From contig JACQYL010000045.1 in assembly GCA_016208165.1 (NCBI GenBank), positions 1 through 64,000 on the forward strand: a stretch of DNA of 64,000 nucleotides. The letters run 5' to 3'. Each line of letters starts with the position of its first letter. Positions within the stretch are counted from its first letter, which is position 1. Below the pieces are notes generated by a model. It saw only the letters and a program-made list of their open reading frames with translations, made no database searches and was not told where the DNA came from. The translations under genes and the position numbers were made by a program. The DNA is from Deltaproteobacteria bacterium. GTDB taxonomy: Bacteria > Desulfobacterota > Desulfarculia > JACQYL01. This document shows, in pieces, positions 6,144-37,803 of the stretch.

Positions 6144-7262
6144 TCAAGCCGGCAATGGTTTCCGCAGATACCCTTCGAGCAGCAGATCATCCCCGAAGCG
6201 GCGGTGTTTGACGTTGTATACCTTCATACCATCCGCCATCCGCCGGATGCCGAGATCCCCGAACATACCCGGGGCGTCTTTTCCACCGATGATTTTTGGC
6301 GCATAGAAGAAGTAAATCTTGTCAGCCAATCCCGAACGCAGGGCCGATGCGGCCACCCGACTTCCTCCTTCAATCAGCACGGAGGTCACTTTGCGCCGGG
6401 CCAGCTCACTGATCACCTCGGGAAACGAAACCCAGTCGCCGTCGGCCGTCACCTGGATCACCTCCGAGCCGGCGGCCTCGATTTCGCGAATCTTTTCAGC
6501 GGCCGCCCCTTTTCGGGTGAACACGATCAATCCGGCCTCGGAATCCGCATTGAACACCTTCCGGTCGGACCGGATGTTCAATCCGCTGTCCAGAATCACC
6601 CGTATGGGATCGGATCCGTATTTGCGTCGGCACGTCAATTGCGGATCGTCGGCCATAACGGTGCCCCTTCCCACCATGATGGCGTCCGCTCCGGCCCGCA
6701 GCTTATGCACGAAATTTCGGGAGCGTTCGTTGGTGACCCATTTCGAGTCTCCCATAGAAGTGGCGATCTTCCCGTCCAAGGAAGCAGCCACTTTGATCGC
6801 CAAGAACGGCCGGCCCTGCGTTACGTAGGTGGTGAACGCCTCGTTCAGGTGCGCGCACTCGAGTTCCAGCACACCCGTCGTTACCTCGATCCCCCGCTCC
6901 CGCAACAACGGCGCGCCGCCACCCCGAACCGCCGGGTTGGGGTCCATCTGCCCTATAACCACCCTGCGGACACCACTGTCCAGGACCGCCTGCGTGCACG
7001 GAGGCGTTCTCCCGTAGTGATTGCAGGGCTCGAGGGTTACGTAGAGGGTCGCTCCACGCGCCGCTTCTCCCGCTTCCTCGAGTGCGATCCGCTCCGCATG
7101 CGGCTTCCCGGCTTTGGCATGGTAGCCACGGCCGACGATCGAATGCTCCCGGACCACCACGGCGCCCACCATGGGATTCGGAGAGGTGCGCCCCCATGCC
7201 TTTCTGGCGAGTTGCAGCGCCAGGCGCATGTACTCCTTATCCGTTTTCGGTATCCCAGTCAT
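6144..7262 (-). CDS. ribD: Bifunctional riboflavin deaminase/reductase RibD
   Basis: RibD deaminates the pyrimidinone product of GTP cyclohydrolase II and then reduces its ribosyl side chain with NADPH. The N-terminal deaminase domain (about residues 1-145) has the zinc motif HAE with the downstream [11 protein letters not shown]. The reductase domain (about 150-372) has the [10 protein letters not shown] and [16 protein letters not shown] motifs and a late IEGGSRVA glycine-rich motif. Length 372 is normal. The start overlaps the end of nrdR by 26 bases. No FMN riboswitch core could be recognised upstream of the cluster. Confidence 0.96.
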
Positions 7263-23208: not shown

Positions 23209-23961
23209 TCAAAGGCGCGCGAACCGCGCCATTGGTTTGTGCTCCGGAAATGGATCTTGTCCCGTGATCTCGTACGTTTTCACGTGACGTTCGTCTTCTG
23301 TCAGCCGGCCATCGGAGATCCTGAGAAAGCGATCCGCATACTCCGCCGCATCGTGACTGTGCGTAACCATAATGATGGTTACTCCGTCGCGGTTGAGACC
23401 CTGGAACAGCCGCATGATTTCCCGGCCGGTTTTTGTATCCAGATTGCCAGTGGGTTCGTCCGCGAGCAAGAGGGGAGGCTCGTTGACAATCGCTCTCGCA
23501 ATGGCCGCCCGCTCCTGTTCTCCTCCGGAAATCTGGTTTGGCAATCGTTTTGCCTTGTCCGCCAGCCCTACTCGATCGAGCGCCGTTTCGGCCATGGCGC
23601 GTTTTTGCCTGGCGCTCATTCGGATCGTGGCCACGGGCAGCATCACGTTTTCGATCAAGGACAAATACGGGATCAGGTGAAAGCTCTGGAATACGAATCC
23701 TAAGAACTCCCTTCTGAACTCCGCCCTTTGTTCCGAACCCAGGGCGTATACGTCGATGTCGTCCACCAGGTAACGTCCTTCGGTGGGTGTATTCAGAGCG
23801 CCCAGCATGCTCAAAAGGGTTGACTTGCCGGAACCGGATTCACCCATAATCGCGATGAATTCGCCTTCTTCCATGCCGAAGTTGATTCCTCTTACAGCCG
23901 TAACCGCCGTTTCCCCGACACCGTACCGCTTGACGAGATTCTCCGCTTGCATAGTATTCAT
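23209..23961 (-). CDS. ABC transporter ATP-binding protein (MacB/LolD type)
   Basis: The 250-residue ATPase drives a FtsX-fold permease. Walker A is GESGSGKST near residue 40, the signature motif reads ISGGEQERAAIARAI, and Walker B is LLLADEPTGNLD with the switch His in VTHSHD. The GNLD after Walker B is characteristic of the MacB/LolD/FtsE group. It follows the permease gene after 10 bases and has a GGAG ribosome site. Together with the permease and the DUF2318 gene it forms a three-gene unit similar in content to the Campylobacter Cj1660-Cj1663 iron-uptake region. Confidence 0.95.
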   Translation of the reverse strand: MNTMQAENLVKRYGVGETAVTAVRGINFGMEEGEFIAIMGESGSGKSTLLSMLGALNTPTEGRYLVDDIDVYALGSEQRAEFRREFLGFVFQSFHLIPYLSLIENVMLPVATIRMSARQKRAMAETALDRVGLADKAKRLPNQISGGEQERAAIARAIVNEPPLLLADEPTGNLDTKTGREIMRLFQGLNRDGVTIIMVTHSHDAAEYADRFLRISDGRLTEDERHVKTYEITGQDPFPEHKPMARFARL

Positions 23962-23971
23962 AGTTCTTCTC

Positions 23972-25129
23972 CTACAATGCTCTCAGGGCTTCGTTGGGAT
24001 CCATCCGAGCGGCTTGAAGCGCCGGATAGGTGCTCGAAACGAGGCCCAGAACCAGCGACAGCGACAGAACTCCCCCGGCCAATACCGGATCGAAATGCAG
24101 CGCTACGTGCTGACTTTCCGTAAAGAACGGTATGGCGAACCGAGTACCGGCGAGGCCCAGGATATACCCCAGCACGCCTGCCAATACGGAAATGATCGCC
24201 GCCTCGAACAGAACGATCTGCATCACCTGGCTCTTCTTGTAACCAATGGCGCGAAAGATGCCGAACTCGGAAGTACGTTCCCTCACGCTGCCCATCATGG
24301 TCACCAGGACAACAAGAGCTCCCACGGCCATGACGAGACCCGAAAGCCCGTACACGACTTTTCGAAGATGACCCAGTGTTTCCATGCGACCTTTCACAAC
24401 TTGCTTGATGGCCATCACCTTGGCGCCGGGAAGGACACCGGAAATCTGTTTCACCATTTCCTCAATAGGGCATCCCGCGCACAGGGCGGCCACTTCGGCC
24501 ATGGAAATCTTCCCCTCTTTGCCCAACATCGACTGGGCCATGCTCAGCGGCGCGAAGAGGATCTGATCGTCCTGCGATCCAGTAGGTTCCAGGATTCCCG
24601 TAACGATCAGTTCCCGGCCATCGATCTCGAACCGGTCTCCCTGGCGAATTTCAAGGATCCGAGCCGCTTCCGAGCCTGCCAGCACGCCTTGTCCCACCGG
24701 CATTTCACCATGTACGTTCCACCAGGGTCTCAGATACGACACTACCTCGAAATCCACTCCTGCCAGAAGCACGTTCTGACCGCGTATTTGGAGCGGACCC
24801 AATACCATTGGTCCGACCGCGGCCACGTTCCCGGCATTTTTGATCGTTACAATTTTCCCCAGGTCCTCTTGCCGGAGCTCTTGCATGTCAAACGAAAACC
24901 CTCCTATAGAGAGACCTCCATACGTGAGGGAGAGGTTCTCGGTTTTCGGGAGCACCAGAATGTTGGCCCCGTATTTTTCCAGTTTGTGGTTGATGTCCAT
25001 GGTCAGGGTGTCCACCAGGCTGACAAACGCCACCACGGAGGAAACACCGACCAGGAGCCCTACCAGCACAAACGCTGCTCTTGCTTTACGGCGTTTGAGG
25101 TTGCACAGCGCGATGGTTCTCAACGTCAT
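23972..25129 (-). CDS. ABC transporter permease (FtsX/MacB type)
   Basis: The 385-residue protein has an N-terminal membrane helix (about residues 15-38), a large periplasmic MacB-like domain (about 40-250), and three C-terminal membrane helices that form the FtsX domain. The final residues ARMDPNEALR are the usual ending of MacB-type permeases. Such transporters move mechanical signals or envelope substrates and do not act as classical importers. A short Cys-containing loop (ALCAGCP) lies in the periplasmic domain. The start is 2 bases from the DUF2318 stop, so the genes are translated together. Confidence 0.93.
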   Translation of the reverse strand: MTLRTIALCNLKRRKARAAFVLVGLLVGVSSVVAFVSLVDTLTMDINHKLEKYGANILVLPKTENLSLTYGGLSIGGFSFDMQELRQEDLGKIVTIKNAGNVAAVGPMVLGPLQIRGQNVLLAGVDFEVVSYLRPWWNVHGEMPVGQGVLAGSEAARILEIRQGDRFEIDGRELIVTGILEPTGSQDDQILFAPLSMAQSMLGKEGKISMAEVAALCAGCPIEEMVKQISGVLPGAKVMAIKQVVKGRMETLGHLRKVVYGLSGLVMAVGALVVLVTMMGSVRERTSEFGIFRAIGYKKSQVMQIVLFEAAIISVLAGVLGYILGLAGTRFAIPFFTESQHVALHFDPVLAGGVLSLSLVLGLVSSTYPALQAARMDPNEALRAL

Positions 25130-25131
25130 AA

Positions 25132-25740
25132 TCAGCCCCTATCGGCGAAATCGAAATATTGTTTTCCCTCGAGGATGTCCGCCGCCTTGATCACCAGATT
25201 GTCCCCCACAATCTGCCGGTGAAGCGGCGCCGGATTGCATCCGCCTTTGACTTCGTTGATCAAGACGGAAGCAAAGCGTCTTCCGCAATTGCGGCAGATC
25301 ATCTCGTCACCCTGCTGAACGTACCCTTTTCCAGCCGGCCAGCAGACGTCGCACGCATCAAAAGCGGCGCGGATAACCCCGTCGGAGCTTTTGAGGATGA
25401 AGTATTTTATGTTGTATGCGCCGTGCTGATACGAGAAATGCTTGACCTCCCCGTTTTCGAACATCTGAACCGGATAGGCCACCTCCTGCTCGGAAACGGG
25501 CTCCCCGGATGCGGTCTGTGTTTGAGCCGCCGTCTGGGCCACCGGTGAAATCGCGACAGGTTTTCGATCGCCCGCTCCAGTGAAAAAGGCGGCTCCGGCG
25601 CCAAGAGCTATTGCGGCCAGAACGACGAGGGGCAACAAGCGAAAGGACTTGGATTTATTGTTTCCCAGGACGGCGGCCTTTTTTGCGGCGCGTTTATCCC
25701 GGGCATCTATATGGTTTCCACAGCAGCTTTTCTTAGACAT
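25132..25740 (-). CDS. DUF2318-domain membrane-anchored protein
   Basis: The 202-residue product has a Cys- and Lys-rich cytoplasmic start (MSKKSCCGNH), one membrane helix (about residues 35-58) and a periplasmic DUF2318 domain. The domain shows FDACDVCWPAGKGY, MICRNCGRRF and GGCNPAPL, a five-Cys pattern expected to bind metal or a cofactor. In Campylobacter the homologous protein sits with a P19/FtrI-type iron system and an ABC transporter of the same kind. The ATG at 25740 was chosen for its GGGAG site 6 bases upstream; an earlier ATG at 25773 lacks one. Function in iron or other metal handling is inferred from the locus. Confidence 0.85.
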   Translation of the reverse strand: MSKKSCCGNHIDARDKRAAKKAAVLGNNKSKSFRLLPLVVLAAIALGAGAAFFTGAGDRKPVAISPVAQTAAQTQTASGEPVSEQEVAYPVQMFENGEVKHFSYQHGAYNIKYFILKSSDGVIRAAFDACDVCWPAGKGYVQQGDEMICRNCGRRFASVLINEVKGGCNPAPLHRQIVGDNLVIKAADILEGKQYFDFADRG

Positions 25741-25924
25741 AAGTATCTCCCAAATTAGTATGTTCAAACGCAATCATCGTTTGCAGTTCTTGATAGATCA
25801 GATCGTCGTTTTTTCCGACTCGATGGAGAAACAGCTCACGAACTCGTTCTTGGGATGCAAGGAGCAATGGCCATGGCGCTCTTCGCAACCGTTGAACGGA
25901 AGCGATATCCACGAAGCCCGTCAA
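25733..25924 (-). CDS. Possible 63-residue protein upstream of the DUF2318 gene
   Basis: This frame lies on the same strand as its neighbours and its stop overlaps the DUF2318 start by 8 bases, as in coupled genes. It has no signal peptide and no recognised motif; the middle part is rich in charged residues (QERVRELFLHRVGKNDDLIY). Evidence for translation is only its position, so it may be spurious. Confidence 0.2.
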   Translation of the reverse strand: MTGFVDIASVQRLRRAPWPLLLASQERVRELFLHRVGKNDDLIYQELQTMIAFEHTNLGDTYV

Positions 25925-26733: not shown

Positions 26734-28683
26734 TCATGCCACGGCGGCCAGGCCTCGGGACTCCGTATCACTGAACAGCCGATCGGTATCCAGCATTATC
26801 TTCACCCCCCCGTCCACTTTAGCCATCGAAAGAATGTAGCTCGTATCGATGCCGACTCCGAACATGGGCGCTTCCTCCGTATCCTCCGCTTTGATGCTTA
26901 ATACGTCGGAGACCGAGTCCACGATGATTCCCGAATGGATGGTCCCGGATCGGCCATTTATCTCGATCACAATGATACAGGTACGTTCATTGTATCCGAG
27001 TTCCGCCAATCCGAATTTGAGCCGCAGATCCAAAACGGGGATCACTTTTCCGCGGAGATTGATGACGCCCTTAACAAAGGAAGGCGTTTTGGGTATCGTC
27101 GTTATCGGCATCACGCCAATGATTTCCTTCACGGACAGGATCCCGAGGCCGTATTCCTGGGAGTCCAACTTGAACGTCAGATATTTCCCCTCGATGCCCA
27201 GCATGGCCTTGCCCGAACGTTCCTCCTTTGTCCGGGTCGAGAGATTGGCGATGATCGACGAAACGTCATGAAGCATCGATCTCTGCAAAGACCCTCCACA
27301 GGCAGCCTCCGCGAATCTCAGGTCCACGAATTTCTCGAGGTTTATCCTGGAGCCGACGCCGATTTCGTTCACCATGTAGTCTTGAATCCGATCGAGATCT
27401 TCGACAACGGGAAACAGATCATCGGTTCGGATGCCTTGCGCTTCTTTGAGGACATTTCTAAGGATCGGTACTTTCAGTCCCAGCAGTCCCTTGGGATCCA
27501 GAAAAGAGACGCCGATTTCCGCCGCGGTTTCCGGTTTCTGAGCGATGAAACGACCCGCTTCCACCAGGGCGCCGACAAATTCCTGTACAGCCGTCGGGTG
27601 AGAGGCGATGACTTCGTCCCTCATGGCCACCACGCAACAGGGATGATTCGACCAGAGCTCGCCGGACAGAAAGAGTTGTTGGGCGCTGCCTTCGGCAATG
27701 GCTTTCGTGCCCAGAGGCTCGGCCACCATAAACCCGCAGGCGTCCGGATTGGTTCCCAGAAACTCGGGCATCTTCACAGGCGGCACCACCTCGAAAAACA
27801 CGTCGAAATCGCCCCGTCCGACGGAGCCCGGGCTCAAGCCTATGGCGCGAAGAAACATGTGAGAAAGCATGTGGTGAATGGACAATTCATGCGGTATATA
27901 GAACGTCTTCTGCTTGAACCCTTCCTTCAGCGCCGCCTGACCGCCTGCCGCTCCTTTTTTCCCTTGCACCGCGATACTGCCGTTTTTGTGGGCCAGAAGA
28001 ATCAATTTCAGGGGTACGCCATATGCGAAAAGATCCATTGCAATAGGAGCCAGAACGAACGCAGCGTCCACTTCACCTTTCTCCAGCGCGCGCTGAACGG
28101 GGTTCCAACTCGGCATGCACACGGTTTCGAGTTCAAAAGAATCCGAACGCAGCTTCTCTGTCTGAATCAGGTGCTTAAGGACGCCGAGTGTCAGGTGATC
28201 GGTGATCTGAATGTGGGCTACATTGAGCATCAGCTTTCCGGAAGCGGCTATGCGTACTTCCCTTCGGCCGACACCCGCTTCGGCCTCGCGGCCATCCTTC
28301 GGAGCAAAAACGGATTCTATAACGGCTTTCAGCTCGGGCGGACTGAACGGTTTGGTGAGGAAGTCGCTGACACCGGCTTGTACCGCTGTTTCCGATTGCT
28401 TCTTTTCTCCACGCGCCGTAGCCATGATGAAAGGGATATTTTTAAAGTTCTCGCTGCCGCGTACCCACACCAGCAGCTCATAGCCGTCCATATTGGGCAT
28501 GTTCCAGTCGCTGATGATCAAACCGACATCCGGCTGGACTTTCAACCTTTCAACAGCGTCCAGTCCGTCATCCGCTTCCGCTACGTTGTCAAAGCCCACC
28601 TCCTTCAGCGCCTTGACTTCCATTTTACGCGTAATCTTTGAATCTTCGACCACAAGGATCTTGATGTTGGGATCGACTGCCAT
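26734..28683 (-). CDS. Chemotaxis-like fusion: receiver domain, substrate-binding domain, CheW domain
   Basis: The 649-residue protein has three parts. Residues 1-125 are a response-regulator receiver with acidic pocket ED at 13-14, phospho-acceptor Asp59 in ISDWNMPNMDG, and the Lys in LTKPFSPPE. About 145-470 resemble NrtA/SsuA/THI5-type substrate-binding proteins (NVAHIQITDHLTLGVLKHL, ALEKGEVDAAFVLAPIA). About 500-640 form a CheW domain (FVKGVINLRGKVIPVLDLR). There is no signal peptide and no membrane helix, so the binding domain would be cytoplasmic. A CheV protein is CheW plus receiver; here the order is reversed and a ligand-binding module is inserted. No other chemotaxis gene is in the window. 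A GGGAG site lies 7 bases before the start. Confidence 0.85.
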   Translation of the reverse strand: MAVDPNIKILVVEDSKITRKMEVKALKEVGFDNVAEADDGLDAVERLKVQPDVGLIISDWNMPNMDGYELLVWVRGSENFKNIPFIMATARGEKKQSETAVQAGVSDFLTKPFSPPELKAVIESVFAPKDGREAEAGVGRREVRIAASGKLMLNVAHIQITDHLTLGVLKHLIQTEKLRSDSFELETVCMPSWNPVQRALEKGEVDAAFVLAPIAMDLFAYGVPLKLILLAHKNGSIAVQGKKGAAGGQAALKEGFKQKTFYIPHELSIHHMLSHMFLRAIGLSPGSVGRGDFDVFFEVVPPVKMPEFLGTNPDACGFMVAEPLGTKAIAEGSAQQLFLSGELWSNHPCCVVAMRDEVIASHPTAVQEFVGALVEAGRFIAQKPETAAEIGVSFLDPKGLLGLKVPILRNVLKEAQGIRTDDLFPVVEDLDRIQDYMVNEIGVGSRINLEKFVDLRFAEAACGGSLQRSMLHDVSSIIANLSTRTKEERSGKAMLGIEGKYLTFKLDSQEYGLGILSVKEIIGVMPITTIPKTPSFVKGVINLRGKVIPVLDLRLKFGLAELGYNERTCIIVIEINGRSGTIHSGIIVDSVSDVLSIKAEDTEEAPMFGVGIDTSYILSMAKVDGGVKIMLDTDRLFSDTESRGLAAVA

Positions 28684-28839
28684 AACGATTGGCTCCCTTC
28701 TAGTAGGCTTATATTACGACCATGATCAGGTCCGTACCGTCCCTAAAGCAAGACGATGACACTAGGGAAATCGACGGAAACGAATGCTTGTACCCACTTC
28801 GAACCGATGGAAAGCTCTCGAGACGGATGTCCTCTGCTG

Positions 28840-30780
28840 TTAGGACCCATGCGTCCACAGAGCGTCCCGCAAGCCCGAAACCCTCTCTATCCGCCTCGAG
28901 GACGCGGAGCAAAACACGTCGCGCGCTCCCCAGATCTCCACATGCTTCCGTGCACGAGTAATTCCCGTATACAGCAATTCACGGCTTAAAACCGGGGCGT
29001 CCCTGTCAGGCAGGAGCATTAGAATCCGATCAAACTCCGATCCTTGGCTCTTGTGTACGGTCATGGCGAAAACGGTTTCATGCTCCGTCAGTCGAGCCGG
29101 CGCGAAGGCCCTTACACCTTCTTCCTGATGAGAAAACCAGGCTGTCAGGCCCGGGCCGGCTTTCGGGTTTTCCAAAACAACACCCACGTCTCCATTGAAC
29201 AGATGATTTCTGTAGTCGTTTCTTGTGATCAGAATCGGTTTTCCTGAATACCATCTTCCCTTCGGGTCAATTACACCGTCCTCGGAGAGAAATTTCTCGG
29301 ACAGTCTGTTCAGGTTATTTACTCCAAACCGGCCCTCTCGAAGGGAGCAGAGGATCCGAAACCGGTCCAATGCCTCGAACGTCTTCCGAACCAGTTCATC
29401 CGAAATCCCGTTTCGCCGAATCGATCCTAAGGCCTCTCGATACAACGAGTAGCCTTCCAGTATGGAAGGCTTCAGTTCCCTCTCGAATGCGGCATACGAA
29501 GGCAAGTCCCGCCATCGGAAGTCATCAAAGCCGCCCCCGGCCAGGGTCCGTACCAGCTCTTCACCGCGTCCTTCGTTCACGGATGCACCGGCCCCGGCAA
29601 TCCCGCCTCCACTGTCAAAACGGTAATTCTTCTTCAAGTGCACAATACAATCCTGAAGGCCGGAAGGTCTGTCCTCCATGTCAGAGGCGTCGACGTGTAT
29701 ATCCGCCAAGGTTTCGAGGCATTCCGAGAATTCCCTGGAGAAACGATGACTCCGGTCGTTCGAGCAAATGTCGCCCAATACGGCGCCCGCTTCCACGGAT
29801 GCAAGCTGGTCTTTGTCACCCAGCAGAATCACACGCCCTTTGGCCGGCAGCGCACGAAAAAGCTTGGCCATGAGCGGAAGATCGACCATGGATGCTTCGT
29901 CTACGATCACGAGATCGGCGGTCAGGGGTCTTTTCTCGTCATGCTTGAAATCGGGGGAGCCCGGGATGGCGCCCAGCAGGCGATGAACAGTTGACGCGTG
30001 TTCCGGAATGGCCTCCAGCACTTCGTCTTTGCAGGGCAGCTTCCTTTTGGTTTCAGCTATGGCGTCCTGGAGGCGAGCAGCCGCCTTGCCCGTGGGCGCC
30101 GCCAGGACAATCCGCAAGGGAGAACCGACGGCCGGCTCCTGCAACAAAGCCATGATTCTTGCCACGGTGGTGGTCTTTCCCGTGCCGGGCCCCCCGGATA
30201 TGACGCAAAAGCGCTTCATCGCGGCCGTTGCCGCGGCCACCTTCTGCCAATCCGTGCCGTGTTCCGCTCTTTCGGGGAAAAGGCGGGAAAGCGAGCCGCG
30301 CAGGGCTGAAGGGTTCAAGCACTCGAGGGGAGCTGAAACCCGCGACAGGATCGCTTTCACCAGACTCCTCTCGTATTCCCAGTAACGGCACATATAGAGT
30401 CTCGACCGTTCATCCAGGATCAGAGGTGTGAAACCTCCCGGTTCTCCCACTACCGGATTCGCGCGGAGCGCTTGTTCCCATGTGGACCTGTCCGGACACA
30501 ACACAGCGACTCCTTCCGCCTCGTCCGCGGGCCATGGCTTTCCGGCCAACGCATCCAGATGGATGCAAATGTGTCCGTTCCTCGTATAAGCGCTCAGCAG
30601 CGCGGCCGCAAGGGCTACTTCGAAATGCGCGGTCCTGCATCTGCCCGCCGAAAACCGGGCGAAATGGAGATCGATATCTTCCAGTCGGCCTTCGCTCCGG
30701 AGCCGTTCGAGTCCTTCATAATTCGAGGTCAACTCGATTCTCCACTTGGAAGCAGCGTTGAACACGCTTCGTGAACCCAT
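28840..30780 (-). CDS. recD: Exodeoxyribonuclease V alpha subunit (RecD)
   Basis: RecD is the fast 5'-3' helicase motor of RecBCD, which processes double-strand breaks and degrades linear foreign DNA. Walker A is ISGGPGTGKTTT near residue 200, Walker B is DLVIVDEASMVDLPLM, and the late helicase motifs FAMTVHKSQGSEFD and LYTGITRARKHV are present. The 646-residue length is slightly above normal; the annotated start overlaps recB by 52 bases and the true start may lie a little later, but no other ATG occurs in the first 100 codons. It is the last gene of the recC-recB-recD operon. Confidence 0.95.
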   Translation of the reverse strand: MGSRSVFNAASKWRIELTSNYEGLERLRSEGRLEDIDLHFARFSAGRCRTAHFEVALAAALLSAYTRNGHICIHLDALAGKPWPADEAEGVAVLCPDRSTWEQALRANPVVGEPGGFTPLILDERSRLYMCRYWEYERSLVKAILSRVSAPLECLNPSALRGSLSRLFPERAEHGTDWQKVAAATAAMKRFCVISGGPGTGKTTTVARIMALLQEPAVGSPLRIVLAAPTGKAAARLQDAIAETKRKLPCKDEVLEAIPEHASTVHRLLGAIPGSPDFKHDEKRPLTADLVIVDEASMVDLPLMAKLFRALPAKGRVILLGDKDQLASVEAGAVLGDICSNDRSHRFSREFSECLETLADIHVDASDMEDRPSGLQDCIVHLKKNYRFDSGGGIAGAGASVNEGRGEELVRTLAGGGFDDFRWRDLPSYAAFERELKPSILEGYSLYREALGSIRRNGISDELVRKTFEALDRFRILCSLREGRFGVNNLNRLSEKFLSEDGVIDPKGRWYSGKPILITRNDYRNHLFNGDVGVVLENPKAGPGLTAWFSHQEEGVRAFAPARLTEHETVFAMTVHKSQGSEFDRILMLLPDRDAPVLSRELLYTGITRARKHVEIWGARDVFCSASSRRIERVSGLRDALWTHGS

Positions 30781-33700
30781 TCGGAAGAGGGCCTTCCATG
30801 GTAAATCCCGAATTCAGGACCCCGTTTCATATCTATACCGCGGACGAACAGGTAGAATACCCCGCCGAAATGATCCTCGTAACTGTAGTCCGGAACGCGC
30901 AGGCTCAGGTACCGATCAAGGGCTACCGTATAGATCAGGTACTGCAGCACGTAGTATTCGGCGTTCATAACCGACTCGAGGGCTCGCCGGTGATAATCTT
31001 CAACCCTGCCGCCGAGAAAATTGCTTTTCCAATCCACCAGATAGTACTGGCCGCCAAATCGGAATATCAGATCGATGAATCCCTTCATGAACCCTCTGGC
31101 GGGCCTGAAATCAAGGCGCGCCAGGTGCAGCGCGGCCTCATCCGTAACGAGGTCCTCCGTTCCGGATCTGAACAGATCCTTCAGTGTATCCGCCGATACG
31201 GGATTCAGCGGATAATAGAACTCCATTTCGTTGATTCGATCCCTCGGCCCTACTCGCGAGAGTGATAATTCCGGGCGTTCCGGATCCAGATTCACCTCGA
31301 GAACGTTCCGAATCATAGCGCATACGGGCTCACACCACTTCACATCGAATTCGTATTCGGAAAGCTTCCTCCTCACCAGTTCACTTCTCAGGGCTTCATC
31401 CGGGTTCGCGTAATCCACCTGCTCAAGAATCTCGTGAATGCAGCTTCCCGCTTCCGCGCCCCTGGGGAATTGAAACATGTTCGGATCGCTCCGGGTGTCC
31501 GACGTTTCCGAATAGACCCCTTCCACAACTTTGACGCCGCCCTCCGAGCCGGCATCATGATCGGGAAACTCGGACCGGACGGCTATGTCCGAGATCAGAG
31601 AGGAAAAGCTCGAGATTCGCCAGTCCGTATGGATGCGTCCTCTGAACGTCGAACACGCCAACGGCTTTTCTAACCGATCGCGCGGTTCATATTCCGTTTC
31701 CGCCTGCAAAGGTATGGGCGCACATGCGATGCTACCCCCGGCTTTGTCCGCAAGACTCGTGATTTGCCGGACGAGTTCCTGGTCCTGCAATCGCTTGAAC
31801 TTCTCCCCCAGATCTTTCACGAGGCATTCCGGGTCCAGCGCCTCCGGCCGGTGAAACAGATAGGCAGGCGCCGAGGTTTCAGCACCGTTGAACCGTCCCC
31901 ATACCAGATAACAACGGTTTATGGCCCGCGTCAGGCCGACGTACAACAGTCTGAGGTTTTCGGCCAGAAGTTCGGTGGAGGCCGACGCCCGACTCAGGTC
32001 CATCTTGTCTGATCCCATGTCCAGAACGACGTCAAAGGAATCGTCCCGCTTTTCGTGAAACAGGACCTCGGAACCTCCGCTCTCGGAACCCATCCAGGCA
32101 AAGGGGCAGAACACGATGGGAAATTGAAGCCCTTTGCTTTTGTGCATCGTCAGCAGGCGCACCGCGTCTTCGTCGCTCTCGAGCCGAAGCTCATGTTCGT
32201 CCTGAGGTGTCCCTTCCTCCCGAAACTCAGCGAACCGTTTCAGCAGGTTCCTCATTCCCAGGTTGCGGGCCGAAGCCTCCCTCTGCAACAGTTCCGCCAG
32301 ATGCAGCACGTTCGTCAGCCGCCGCTCGCCGTCCCGGTAGGACAGCAGGCGTTTTCGAACGCCTTCGCCCTGGATCAGCCCACGAAACATCTTCATGAAT
32401 CCGCCTTCCATCCATGATTCATGATAGGTTTCGAACCGTGAAGCCCAGTGCTGCCAAGTAGGTCTCTCCGAATCGGCATCCACTAGTTCTTCACCCCGCA
32501 CACCGATCAGGTCCGTCACCAGGGCGGATTTGAGCAATCTCGGTTCGCTCGGCTCGGAGACCGCCACCAGCACACGCCACAGTTCCTCCGCTTCCCGGGA
32601 TTCGAACACATTTCCCGTGCTCAGCATAACGGTCCGGACTCCAAGCTCGTTCAGTGCGGTCTGGATCAGACCTGCTTCCGTATGTTTTCGGACCAGCACG
32701 GCAATGTCGCTCTCCCGCAGCGGACGATCGCCCAGAAGCGCCCTCTTCCGCCGCCCGGATTCCAGCAAACGGGCGATCTCGCCGGCCACGGCTCTGCTTA
32801 TGACTTCACCAGCCAGACCTTTTGAAATCACTTTCCGTTCAGAAGAGACCCGCTCGGGATCCGCGTACCAGATCCAAAACGGAGGCTCTCTTCGACCGCC
32901 GACCGTCAGAAACGCGTGAACTCTTCCTTCCGGCGGACGAACGGGATGAAAGGGAATCTCGTCGTACACGAACGGAGCGGAAGCGTTGGAGAAAACGCCG
33001 TTTACAGCTTCAATCAGCCCCGGCTCCGACCGCCAGTTCTCGGTCATCGTGTATCGGGTCGCCACGTGCGACGCCGCCTTCATATAGGCGAACAGATCGG
33101 CTCCCCGGAAACTGTAAATAGCCTGTTTGGGATCTCCGATGAGAAACAGAATCGAATCCCTCGTACCGAAAACGGAGTCAAAGATGGCATATTGGATCGG
33201 ATCCGTATCCTGAAACTCATCGATCAGCGCTGCCTTGTATTTCTTCCTGAGAGATCCCGCGAGTCGTGAATCGCCCTCCCGGTTCAACGCAGCCCGGACC
33301 TTGAGCAACAAATCGTCAAAATGTTGGACGTTTCGTTTCTCTTTTCTTGTCGGCAACTCGGCTTTGAGATAGCGTAAGAAAGCGCTTTTCAAGAACATCA
33401 AATAGCGATCCAGGGTTGCCTCGGCCTGCTTGACCAACGCCTCGTGCCGATCGCACTGCACGAAGAACCGGTGGTCGGGTGACCGCCCCTTTTGCTTCGT
33501 GGCTCTCTTCAGGGTATCGGTGGTGAACTTGGAAAAAGATTCGATCGAGGCCGACGGCATCGGGCCCTTCTGTTCCAGATAAGAATCCAAATCGGCCAGG
33601 TATCTGGAAACTTGAGTCTCATTATAGCTTCGAGCACTCAGGTCCGAGTTCCGGAGTTGCCGTTCGATTTCGCCCTTTTCCGATAGCCATGTCCGCCTCA

Positions 33701-34376
33701 GGCTCCCATGGCTTTCTCGAACGCCGGAGAGCAATTCCGACATGCTATGTATTGGGGGCGGAGTCACGTCGGGGATGACCCTCAAATCCGGACACCCTAT
33801 GGAAGTGTGGCCGAGTTTCAGGAACGTGTCCGCGGATATCCCTTTTCCCATAAAATATCGGACCAGTTCGACGGGTGCATCGTAGAAGTGCTTCCGCCAG
33901 AAGTCCTCGGCGATTTGTCTTTTAAGAGTCTCCTGGTCCAGGATCATTTCCGCATCGAACAGGCTGCCGCTTTCAAACGCATTCTCTCGAAGTATCCTCT
34001 GGCACAGCCCGTGAATGGTGAAAATCGCCGATTCATCGAAGTCGTTGATCGCGCCGGTCAGTCGGTGGATGACATCATCCACATTTCCGAGATGGTTTTC
34101 CGTCAGCTTACGCAGAAGCTCGTCCTCTCCCTCCCCGATTTGAAACGCTTTCCTGGCCTCGATCAGCCTCCTACGGATTCTACCCCGAAGTTCCTCCGTC
34201 GCCGCCACGGTGAACGTGACCACAAGAATCTGGTGGACTGAAAGTCGTTTTTCGATGATCAGCCGGAGAAAAAGCCCCTCGATGGCAAAAGTCTTGCCCG
34301 TGCCCGCGCTGGCTTCGATCAGGTTGGTCCCTGATAGCGGTACGCCCATCAAGTCGAAATTTCTAACGTTTCCCAT
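30729..34376 (-). CDS. recB: Exodeoxyribonuclease V beta subunit (RecB)
   Basis: RecB is the 3'-5' helicase and the only nuclease of RecBCD. The 1215-residue product has a superfamily 1A helicase core with Walker A in IEASAGTGKTFAIEG at about residues 22-36, Walker B in ALIDEFQDTDPIQY, and motif VRLLTMHKSKGLQFPIV. The C-terminal nuclease domain shows GFIDLIFRFGGQYYLVDWKS with the Asp and Asp-x-Lys metal residues (quoted in part: IFRFGGQYYLVDWKS). Length is normal. Its start overlaps the recC stop by 28 bases. Confidence 0.96.
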   Translation of the reverse strand: MGNVRNFDLMGVPLSGTNLIEASAGTGKTFAIEGLFLRLIIEKRLSVHQILVVTFTVAATEELRGRIRRRLIEARKAFQIGEGEDELLRKLTENHLGNVDDVIHRLTGAINDFDESAIFTIHGLCQRILRENAFESGSLFDAEMILDQETLKRQIAEDFWRKHFYDAPVELVRYFMGKGISADTFLKLGHTSIGCPDLRVIPDVTPPPIHSMSELLSGVRESHGSLRRTWLSEKGEIERQLRNSDLSARSYNETQVSRYLADLDSYLEQKGPMPSASIESFSKFTTDTLKRATKQKGRSPDHRFFVQCDRHEALVKQAEATLDRYLMFLKSAFLRYLKAELPTRKEKRNVQHFDDLLLKVRAALNREGDSRLAGSLRKKYKAALIDEFQDTDPIQYAIFDSVFGTRDSILFLIGDPKQAIYSFRGADLFAYMKAASHVATRYTMTENWRSEPGLIEAVNGVFSNASAPFVYDEIPFHPVRPPEGRVHAFLTVGGRREPPFWIWYADPERVSSERKVISKGLAGEVISRAVAGEIARLLESGRRKRALLGDRPLRESDIAVLVRKHTEAGLIQTALNELGVRTVMLSTGNVFESREAEELWRVLVAVSEPSEPRLLKSALVTDLIGVRGEELVDADSERPTWQHWASRFETYHESWMEGGFMKMFRGLIQGEGVRKRLLSYRDGERRLTNVLHLAELLQREASARNLGMRNLLKRFAEFREEGTPQDEHELRLESDEDAVRLLTMHKSKGLQFPIVFCPFAWMGSESGGSEVLFHEKRDDSFDVVLDMGSDKMDLSRASASTELLAENLRLLYVGLTRAINRCYLVWGRFNGAETSAPAYLFHRPEALDPECLVKDLGEKFKRLQDQELVRQITSLADKAGGSIACAPIPLQAETEYEPRDRLEKPLACSTFRGRIHTDWRISSFSSLISDIAVRSEFPDHDAGSEGGVKVVEGVYSETSDTRSDPNMFQFPRGAEAGSCIHEILEQVDYANPDEALRSELVRRKLSEYEFDVKWCEPVCAMIRNVLEVNLDPERPELSLSRVGPRDRINEMEFYYPLNPVSADTLKDLFRSGTEDLVTDEAALHLARLDFRPARGFMKGFIDLIFRFGGQYYLVDWKSNFLGGRVEDYHRRALESVMNAEYYVLQYLIYTVALDRYLSLRVPDYSYEDHFGGVFYLFVRGIDMKRGPEFGIYHGRPSSEWVHEACSTLLPSGESS

Positions 34377-37300
34377 AGACTGTGTTCTTCCTGACGTTCC
34401 AGCAAGGGGCCGAAAAGTTCCTGGGACAACTGCTCGAACTCGTTGTCAAGAGGAGTGGAATCGCGGAGGCATAGCTCGTAATATCGGTCGGCGGCCTCAG
34501 GACGCCATGGAGCGTCCCAGACCCTCCGAGCGGCCTTCAAGGCATTTTCCCCCATTTTCCCATCTTTCGCCGCGGCTCCGGCAAAGGCGAGGGAGGCCTC
34601 AGGAAAAAAATGGATGGGCCTGCAAAGTCCTTCCCAATACCTTAAGAGCAGGGTCTCCAGAATCCGCTCGGGTTGATTTGGAGGCCGATAAACAAACGTC
34701 TTGTCCTCCCCTATCAGAATCCCCTTCCGGGACGAATCGAAGTGAGCGGAGGAGCCTAGCGCCAAATAATGAATCCAGATACGCAGCCGGTCTTGTGCTT
34801 TGATCTTTGCGCATCGTGCGTGGAGCAGCGCTCCGGGGTAGAGATGATCAATCCGGGCTGTAAGCCGGAATCCCGCCAAGGGTACATTCACTTCAACTGG
34901 AGCCAGGGCGCCGAGTTCCACGATCGGTCTCAGTCTTTCCGAAAATCGGGACGCGGCATTCTCCACCCGATCGTACTCACAGATTCCGGCCGCCCCGTGA
35001 GGGAGACGCCCCGAAGCCCGGGCCCTGGCAAAAAACGCCTCTGCGTCCGCACCCGAAATCAGCTCCTCGTTTAGTTCCTGCTTCAGGACATACTCCTCGA
35101 GGCGGTCCAGAGCGAAAAGCTCACGGTCGTCCAGCAAGGCGGGTTCTTCATCCAAGGCCACTCCCAAACGCTGCTTCAACAGGAATCTGCAGGGATTGGC
35201 GTAGAAGGAACACAACTGCTCCACATCCACGACGCGCCATTCCTCTCCCGGATCGTCCAAGCGCGAAGCAATGAAGCGAAAAGGCTGCGGGACATGCGCT
35301 CTCAGACTTCGAGCCGCGCCGCAATTTTCCTCCGAATAACTGAGCAGGTCCCCGTCCGGATCGAAATACATGGAATTGAACGCCTGAAGGGAATGTTCGC
35401 ACACCCACCGGCTCGGCGCCTCTCTTCCGGGGGCCTGGAATCCCTGCCTGACGTAATCCAACAGTTCACTGACCACTACGGACGGCGGGATCTTACTGTT
35501 GTCTCGAATGCTCTGACCCACATAACTGATATAGAGTTTCTCTCGTGCGGAGAGGATCGCCTCCAAGAACAGATAGCGGTCATCCTCCCTGCGGGAACGA
35601 TCTCCTTTCCTGGGAGCCTTGGCCATAAGATCGAAGCCGAGCACGCTCGATTTCCTTGGAAAGGAGTCATCGTTCATGCCCAAGAGACAGACCACTCTGA
35701 AAGGAATGCTGCGCATGGGCAGCATGGAGCAGAACGTGACGCCTCCGGCCAGGAACCCCAGGCCGAAGCCCTCGCGTTCGAAAGCCCGCTTCAGATAGGA
35801 TCGTACGACTTCAACCGCGACCGTCCCGGAGAAGCCGGATCGATCCTCCATTTCAGTGAGGCTCGAGATGAGGCGTCGAAGCATCCGCATCTCGAATTCG
35901 TTTTCGTCTCGGGGTTCAAAAAAATCGTCCAGAATCCCTTCAAGCATCTCCGCCCATTCGCTGAGGTTATGCGGGTTTCCCAGCGCCATCCGCCATTGGA
36001 ATATCCGATCCATGAATTCTACGAAAGAACCCAAAACGATGGCCTCACCGCCTTCGATGCCGTCAAAGGGAAGAATGCCGTCAAACATCCGCCGGCCTTC
36101 TCCGCGCATGGCGTACCCTAGTAGTAAGCGATCCAGCCCGGCGGACCAGGTGTTCTCCGGAATTGCAGGCAGCCCCATTCCGGCTCGTTCCGAAGCACTC
36201 ACGCCCCATTTTATGTGCGTTTCCTCTATCCAACGTTGGATCAGGTCTACATCCAATTCGGATAGACCGAACGTTCGCCGGACCGCAGGAGCTTCAAGAA
36301 TGGAAAGCACATCCGTTGCTCCGAGCCGGCCGGCGGCCAGATCGAGGATGGAAAGGAAGGGTTCCGCCAGGAGCCCTTCCTTTCGAAGACTCTGATCGGC
36401 TATTCGAAATGGTATTCGCAAAGACTCGTTTTCCGGAGCCCCGAAAACGGCCCGTACGAATGGGGCATAGACCTCTACGTCCGGGGTCATTACCATGATG
36501 TGGTGGGGTTCCAGCGTGGGCTTCTCGTCAAACATCCCGAGCAGGTGGTCGTGAAGGACCTCTACCTCGCGCATAGTGCCGTGGCAAGAGTGAAACTCGA
36601 TCGAACGGTCCGATTCCACGTCAAACGAAAGCCGGCATTGCTCATAGTAGCGGTTGCGGAGGTGGAGAATATCGGATTGAACGCACGCGAGTATGCTTCG
36701 CTCCCCCGGATCCTCAAAATCTTCCAGTTCCGTTGAATCTTCGAGTTCGGAAACCAGCGAGAAGAACGCTCTCCCGCGCCGGCCTAACGACGCAAGGAGA
36801 CTATTTCCCTCTTCCAGATGCAACGGGCCGGATTCGGAAGGGAAAACGGTATATTGACGCATCTCGCGTTCGGATACGATGTCTCCCCAGTATTCTCCGG
36901 TCGGGTTCATAAGAAACAGGTTCACTTGAACCGTTGACGCAAGTCCACGCAAGATATCGAGATGAAAAGGCGGCAGGTAGGAGATGCCGAAAACGGAAAT
37001 CCGTTCAGGAAGCGACCCGGGAATGAATTCCCGGCTGTGGAGATGTTGAAAGAACCGGTTCCTCTGCGTTGCGCGATGGGACCTGTCCGTACCCGCGGCC
37101 ACTTCTCTCCACAAAACCGCCTGCCAATGGCGTTCACTTCCATTGTCCCACCTGAGGATCATCTCCGGTCGAAACAGCAGGTACTGGTCAAAGAGATCCG
37201 CAATGCGAATCGACATCTGCAGTTGTTTCAGTCCGGTTTCGTCATCAGAGAGGTACGAGTCCAGATCCGGAAATTGTCGTCTCCGAAGCGGATCGCTCAG

Positions 37301-37597
37301 GACTTCCATGATTCTCCAGGTCATGACCTCGGGCTCGAAGGGAGATCCTTCGGCCGGGTCTGCGAGAAAAACACGGAAGACGACCTCGATCAGAGCGTTT
37401 GGAAACGGGAAACTCAGGTTTGCAGCGACACGATGACGTTTGGCGAGTTCCAAAGACACCCATCGTTCCATGCCTTTGCTCTGGACAACAATCATTTCTG
37501 TTCGCAGCGGAGACGGCAAGGGAACGCGCAGTGTCTCAGCCAGGGCGGACACCAGGTTCTCCAGGCGATTACTCAGAAAAACGTTCAGGCCCGGCAT
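34349..37597 (-). CDS. recC: Exodeoxyribonuclease V gamma subunit (RecC)
   Basis: RecC holds RecB and RecD together and scans the single strand for Chi sequences; it is a helicase-like protein without working ATPase motifs. The product starts MPGLNVFLSNRLENLV, the classical RecC N-terminus, and from the ATG at 37597 has 1082 residues, near the family length. A longer frame to 37771 exists but adds 58 residues with no homology. Typical segments include VQSKGMERWVSLELA near residue 40 and HIMVMTPDVEVYAPFV further on. It is the first gene of the recCBD operon. Confidence 0.95.
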   Translation of the reverse strand: MPGLNVFLSNRLENLVSALAETLRVPLPSPLRTEMIVVQSKGMERWVSLELAKRHRVAANLSFPFPNALIEVVFRVFLADPAEGSPFEPEVMTWRIMEVLSDPLRRRQFPDLDSYLSDDETGLKQLQMSIRIADLFDQYLLFRPEMILRWDNGSERHWQAVLWREVAAGTDRSHRATQRNRFFQHLHSREFIPGSLPERISVFGISYLPPFHLDILRGLASTVQVNLFLMNPTGEYWGDIVSEREMRQYTVFPSESGPLHLEEGNSLLASLGRRGRAFFSLVSELEDSTELEDFEDPGERSILACVQSDILHLRNRYYEQCRLSFDVESDRSIEFHSCHGTMREVEVLHDHLLGMFDEKPTLEPHHIMVMTPDVEVYAPFVRAVFGAPENESLRIPFRIADQSLRKEGLLAEPFLSILDLAAGRLGATDVLSILEAPAVRRTFGLSELDVDLIQRWIEETHIKWGVSASERAGMGLPAIPENTWSAGLDRLLLGYAMRGEGRRMFDGILPFDGIEGGEAIVLGSFVEFMDRIFQWRMALGNPHNLSEWAEMLEGILDDFFEPRDENEFEMRMLRRLISSLTEMEDRSGFSGTVAVEVVRSYLKRAFEREGFGLGFLAGGVTFCSMLPMRSIPFRVVCLLGMNDDSFPRKSSVLGFDLMAKAPRKGDRSRREDDRYLFLEAILSAREKLYISYVGQSIRDNSKIPPSVVVSELLDYVRQGFQAPGREAPSRWVCEHSLQAFNSMYFDPDGDLLSYSEENCGAARSLRAHVPQPFRFIASRLDDPGEEWRVVDVEQLCSFYANPCRFLLKQRLGVALDEEPALLDDRELFALDRLEEYVLKQELNEELISGADAEAFFARARASGRLPHGAAGICEYDRVENAASRFSERLRPIVELGALAPVEVNVPLAGFRLTARIDHLYPGALLHARCAKIKAQDRLRIWIHYLALGSSAHFDSSRKGILIGEDKTFVYRPPNQPERILETLLLRYWEGLCRPIHFFPEASLAFAGAAAKDGKMGENALKAARRVWDAPWRPEAADRYYELCLRDSTPLDNEFEQLSQELFGPLLERQEEHSLWETLEIST

Positions 37598-37803
37598 GGA
37601 ATTGTTTTGACACGCTTGGTTCGACCTTGTTGCCCCCCGGCGCCCTTCCAAATCCGGGTTCCCTGAGTGTCTTGAAGAGAAAATAGCCCGGCCGAGGGCG
37701 GCCGAGGTCCCGTTCTTGATCGAAGATCGACCATCCGAGGCGCCGGTCGCCGCGACAAACGGGCTCAGCACTCCTGCCGATCGGGAACATCCGGAATGGC
37801 TCT

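Follow-up and report, generated by a model that had tools for sequence, protein, structure and literature searches.

What might be the function of a soluble protein that carries a receiver, a binding-type domain and a chemotaxis coupling domain in a single chain? This question is raised by a gene in the 64-kb stretch of DNA analysed here (the window), whose product had been predicted to combine these domains in reverse order relative to CheV, with the binding-type domain in between.

Domain architecture and genomic setting

Pfam searches confirmed the predicted layout, and all three domains of the protein lie far above the gathering cut-offs (Table 1). The middle region comprises approximately 315 residues, close to the 320 or so first estimated. 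With a receiver that starts near residue 7, there is no space for a signal peptide, as had also been expected. Moreover, the most hydrophobic stretch of 19 residues has a mean of only 1.7 (Kyte-Doolittle). With neither N-terminal space nor a hydrophobic stretch of membrane-helix grade, the protein is expected to be soluble and to stay in the cytosol.

Table 1. Positions of the fusion gene, its domains and adjoining features in the window.
Feature	Position	Strand	Details
REC-NMT1_2-CheW gene	26734..28683	-	649 aa; ATG start; ORF 28683->26734 without internal stop
Receiver domain, CheY type	28318..28659	-	residues 9-122; Pfam PF00072 Response_reg, 2e-25
Phospho-acceptor D59 of receiver	28507-28509	-	
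SBP-type binding domain	27289..28239	-	residues about 149-465; Pfam NMT1_2 core 153-390, 1.8e-29
CheW domain	26764..27186	-	residues 500-640; Pfam PF01584, 4.4e-33
Shine-Dalgarno-like GAAGGGAG	28693..28700	-	9 nt 5' of ATG; read from sequence
recC-recB-recD	28840..37771	-	upstream of fusion gene; 156 bp gap

The receiver has the complete CheY-type set of an acidic pair, a phospho-accepting Asp, a Thr/Ser and a Lys. None of these residues (E13, D14, D59, T89 and K111) varies among the 28 full-length copies, in agreement with the original prediction that all acidic residues and the phospho-acceptor Asp59 are present, and the receiver fold matches CheY (TM 0.94 by target length). In the CheW domain, E520 and R544 map to E38 and R62 of E. 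coli CheW, a pair whose role has been described (PMC3828127), and were likewise invariant in 28/28 full-length copies. The match to PF01584 above the cut-off, together with this conserved pair, identifies the C-terminal region as a CheW coupling domain.

Like CheV, the fusion unites a CheW docking domain and a receiver, here putatively phosphorylatable, in one soluble protein, and both are often encoded by orphan genes. In CheV, however, CheW is followed by a C-terminal receiver, whereas the fusion has its receiver at the N-terminus and the binding domain in between. The fusion receivers cluster as a single clade (97/100) close to CheY, and the fusion CheW domain groups with stand-alone CheW, while the four CheV sequences compared are distant from the fusion in both domains. 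Domain order and trees hence led us to reject a reordered CheV.

The recCBD neighbours are not thought to be related to the function of the fusion gene. As predicted, a search of the 64-kb window with a threshold of E<=1e-9 found no other MCP or Che genes, although relatives differ in this respect and some lie in che operons. No importer genes adjoin the fusion gene; the nearest ABC genes (23209-25129) are of the MacB/FtsX type. They belong to an ordinary transport-type cluster on one strand (23209-25773), with an FtrD-like Fe-S protein, a MacB/FtsX-type permease and an ABC ATPase.

Distribution of the family and links to chemotaxis genes

The protein had been regarded as a single unusual case. 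In contrast, our searches revealed a widespread family: 49 of the 60 fetched loci have the order REC-NMT1-CheW, in ten no CheW was detected after REC-NMT1 (a C-terminal TPR region is present in at least two of these), and one carries two REC-NMT1 units in tandem with a weak CheW. An assembly artefact or chance fusion was rejected, since the same domain order recurs at 49 loci in dozens of genomes. Relatives share 45-57% identity with the window protein over the full length. The fusion occurs across many Desulfobacterota families, and thus in numerous bacteria of the sulfate-reducer type, and in three gammaproteobacterial genomes, with full-length relatives in MAGs assigned to Syntrophobacterales, Desulfobacteraceae, Desulfobacterales, a 'Deltaproteobacteria' and a 'Thiotrichales' MAG. 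The 395 genomes sampled from the host's phylum, which is Desulfobacterota to judge from the named relatives, gave 24 matches; three of these proved to be exported binding proteins, leaving 21 genomes with the fusion, including the host. In the gammaproteobacterial class to which the 'Thiotrichales' MAG belongs, three of 274 genomes contained the fusion. In the class of genome G258, REC-linked or stand-alone matches turned up in 32 of 243 genomes. A tree with a midpoint root gathers every REC-linked NMT1 domain into a single clade (100/100), to which stand-alone cytosolic NMT1 proteins are closest, followed by exported binding proteins.

Several loci deviate from the common architecture. The genes at L250:3001-4905 and L222:2318-4231 have a coiled-coil-like and TPR region in place of CheW. 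Genome G743 has five REC-NMT1 genes (L217, L218, L219, L243 and L251), four of which lack CheW, as well as a stand-alone NMT1 (L223).

Most fusion copies, including that of the window, are orphan genes outside che loci. In two genomes (G258 and G941), however, the fusion lies within an MCP-CheR-CheB-CheA operon. The second copy of G258, a genome in a single contig, is located at L173:6057-8240 in a same-strand run of MCP, MCP, REC-NMT1-CheW, MCP, CheR, CheB and CheA; this cluster also has CheD and a separate CheW (L178:8632-9162). In G941 (L232:8226-10361) the order is fusion-MCP-CheR-CheB-CheA-CheD. Furthermore, a REC-NMT1 gene without CheW in G743 (L217) adjoins CheR-CheB-CheW-MCP. An MCP gene lies immediately 5' of the gene at L029, L031, L250 and L251, and CheY does so at L109, while CheX lies immediately 3' at L112 and L170. 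In total, nine of the 60 loci have an MCP, CheR or CheX neighbour on the same strand within 300 bp, although several are close kin and the independent cases are fewer. CheA was present in 21/21 fusion genomes, as against 290/395 in the phylum sample overall (hypergeometric p 0.0012, kinship ignored).

In the genome from which the window derives, a flagellar cluster contains CheA, CheR, CheB and CheX, and a second cluster contains CheY; this genome also has 13 MCPs, and three stand-alone CheW genes that are 50-62% identical to the fusion CheW domain. A short CheW fragment (101-aa frame) lies between MCP genes in the same genome (L119, about 6947-7075; G000 contig C105), and is perhaps a frameshifted CheW. 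At L114:4239-12660, a CheR-CheW-MCP-CheA cluster includes an exported NMT1_2 binding protein, its gene flanked by a double-CheW gene on one side and an MCP gene on the other; this protein is a possible periplasmic counterpart of the fusion.

The operon copies differ from the family in their CheW module. In G258, the CheW domain of the operon copy shares 83% identity with the operon's own CheW but only 46% with the CheW domain of the orphan paralogue, whereas its NMT1 (65%) and REC (56%) domains remain with the fusion family. The CheW domain of the G941 copy is 84% identical to that of L173 and 79% to the CheW of the G258 operon; a comparison of L232 with L233 was left out, as only 37 residues aligned. 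Both che-operon copies thus carry a CheW module that resembles the operon's CheW rather than the family's. These identities are most simply explained by a replacement of the docking module to suit a particular array. Such a swap would be expected only if docking matters. Together with the relatives in che operons, this match to the local array supports the original suggestion that the CheW part can link to a kinase array.

The middle domain, its proposed role and alternatives

AlphaFold2 predicted the whole window protein with a pLDDT of 82, and the middle domain alone with a pLDDT of 90 and a pTM of 0.89. The domain is therefore confidently predicted to adopt the full fold of a type-II binding protein, a check that had been set beforehand. 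The profile match and the predicted two-lobed fold assign it to the type II SBPs (NMT1_2, PF13379). The best solved match in Foldseek was 3un6 (TM 0.92 by target length), a zinc-bound structure of an ABC-importer binding protein from S. aureus. The CmpC regulatory domain (9uai), which is cytosolic, came next, ahead of NrtA (2g29), TauA and SsuA. The middle domain shares with 3un6 a Cys-Cys motif near HPCC, but 3un6 is an exported transporter component. Invariant positions of the middle domain (H157, D162, H163, W193, P213, H232, G235, S236, P264, H265, S268, H270, M305, E322, P323, W344, H347, C349 and C350) fall at strand ends and in loops typical of the cleft, according to conservation and predicted secondary structure. 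Many of them, pocket-type residues included, are common to exported binding-protein relatives.

Operon linkage, the exchange of the CheW module, the intact residues and the co-occurrence with CheA led us to propose an array sensor. We consider it reasonably likely that the fusion is a cytosolic, ligand-sensing, phosphorylatable coupling protein of the chemotaxis array. Its C-terminal CheW domain would occupy the position of CheW or CheV in the CheA-receptor array, while the middle domain, a binding protein that is no longer exported, would close around a small intracellular molecule. The ligand-bound state would then alter the coupling of CheW to CheA or receptors, and with it the kinase output. 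The N-terminal receiver would be phosphorylated by CheA at D59, and this phosphorylation may tune or reset the response, as in CheV; phospho-mimetic CheV binds one particular receptor, which unphosphorylated CheV does not (PMC12691637). The best explanation is that the fusion works like a cross of CheV and the SAM sensor CheWS, yet is neither. Speaking against this model, the majority of copies are orphans, and operon-linked ones are known from few lineages. CheW-less or TPR-bearing REC-NMT1 relatives also exist, so chemotaxis may not be the sole output of REC-NMT1 proteins.

One could argue that the fusion acts as an adaptor of the CheV kind or as a phosphate sink, with a middle domain that has lost ligand binding and is a mere structural spacer, since REC and CheW suffice for a CheV-type function (PMC4742279, PMC12691637) and the majority of fusion copies are orphan genes. 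A spacer would not, however, be expected to keep so many invariant positions at strand-helix junctions, where SBPs have their ligand sites, or to share many of these with exported binding proteins. In addition, neither REC nor CheW is of the CheV type, as judged against the four CheV sequences compared. We therefore regard a spacer as unlikely.

Somewhat less likely still is a switch of the NasS/NasT type, in which the binding domain would control its own receiver or a non-chemotaxis partner, and CheW would only position the protein at the pole or array. NasS is NrtA-like, lacks an export signal and controls a cytosolic response-regulator partner (PMC3795266). NasS/NasT and the C-terminal regulatory domains of NrtC and CmpC thus resemble the fusion in using an NrtA-type binding domain as an intracellular sensor. 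Such a switch would also fit with REC-NMT1 proteins that lack CheW, occur in tandem or carry TPR, and with the position of the fusion after an oxidoreductase-like gene pair in two genomes (see below). Yet NasS and NasT are a separate sensor and a REC-ANTAR partner whose output is RNA binding, and NrtC and CmpC act on a transporter, all without CheW. In contrast, the fusion is a single polypeptide without an ANTAR or DNA-binding output and without the full set of nitrate-coordinating residues. Moreover, CheW is present in 49/60 loci, and some CheW-less forms still adjoin MCP or CheR. These features speak against such a switch.

Does this sensor respond to nitrate? The nitrate ligands of NrtA, which we take to be W102, Q155 and K269, align to W193, S236 and C350 of the window protein in a profile alignment with a consistent numbering offset. 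Hence, the Trp is kept, while two of the three positions are changed (Q to S236 and K to C350). In 28/28 fusion copies, Cys replaces the Lys that the CmpC domain retains, which makes nitrate or bicarbonate unlikely as a ligand. The predicted resemblance to NrtA thus held for the fold and failed for the nitrate-coordinating residues. NrtA also differs in having an export signal and an ABC-transporter context, whereas the fusion starts with a receiver. A nitrate (or bicarbonate) sensor, as could be surmised from the resemblance to NrtA and CmpA and from the regulatory domains of NrtC and CmpC that rank with NrtA among the closest solved sequences and folds, is therefore rejected as highly improbable on its pocket residues, and the top fold match is 3un6, not NrtA.

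Gene neighbours vary among the fetched loci, and no single conserved neighbour that points to the ligand was found: recCBD adjoins the fusion in the window, 2-oxoacid oxidoreductase-like genes in two f42 genomes, and DUF169 genes in others. DUF169 genes lie upstream of the fusion in G002 and in gammaproteobacterial copies; in G029, DUF169 adjoins a stand-alone NMT1 gene. In the gammaproteobacterial MAGs (L038:3586-5929, L227 and L228), a DsrC-like/cysteine-desulfurase fusion sits between DUF169 and the fusion gene; this combination is a weak hint at sulfur chemistry. A DUF169 gene adjoins a TauE-type permease in a Desulfovibrio cluster with nitrate-resistant mutants (PMC4001038).

Other neighbourhoods were observed as well. 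In the two f42 genomes (L164:6583-11113 and L166:4184-8723) the fusion directly follows a gene pair resembling 2-oxoacid:ferredoxin oxidoreductase, as assigned by eye. At L112:6316-7769 and L170:8262-9812, a stand-alone cytosolic NMT1 gene lies by the CheX directly 3' of the fusion, followed by a ferredoxin-type protein of 439 aa. A gene for a Tat-type exported NMT1_2 binding protein adjoins a prismane/CO-dehydrogenase-family gene and ABC-transporter genes at L175:7001-9924. The hints from DUF169, the DsrC fusion, CO-dehydrogenase and the che cluster disagree on a single ligand.

Relation to CheW-fused sensors

The input of chemotaxis arrays is usually thought to come from receptors. The fusion, in contrast, is best classed among CheW-fused sensors and adaptors, and is probably an internal sensor that feeds the chemotaxis machinery. 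Its closest precedent is CheWS of Treponema denticola, a CheW with a CheR-like SAM sensor, which is reported to be the first sensor of the CheW-fused kind to have been characterised; anchored in arrays, its cytosolic domain can feed a metabolite signal into the array (PMC10653840). Both proteins have a cytosolic small-molecule domain fused to CheW, and a separate normal CheW exists alongside CheWS, as in the G258 operon. CheWS differs in its sensor fold, the position of the sensor C-terminal to CheW, the absence of a receiver, its phylum and its known ligand, and Pfam found no CheR match in the window protein.

No published description of the REC-NMT1_2-CheW layout was found in the literature searched, Fig. 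S10 of PMC10653840 aside, and within that scope the claim that no such protein has been described is supported. The figure, from Muok et al. 2023, covers about 30 undescribed CheW architectures, among which REC-NMT1_2-CheW may be listed.

A broader reading, which we find possible and put forward tentatively, is that REC-NMT1 may be a portable cytosolic sensor cassette derived from an exported binding protein. It would plug into different arrays by way of an exchangeable CheW and form a third class of array adaptor beside CheV and CheWS, with an intracellular, perhaps sulfur-related, metabolite as its signal. If the proposed function is true, the fusion would represent a second, unrelated family of CheW-fused sensors, with another fold, a built-in phosphorylation site and a CheW module that varies to suit its array, in many anaerobes. 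Adaptor-borne sensing of the cell interior would then be a general principle, for which the fusion family offers proteins for testing.
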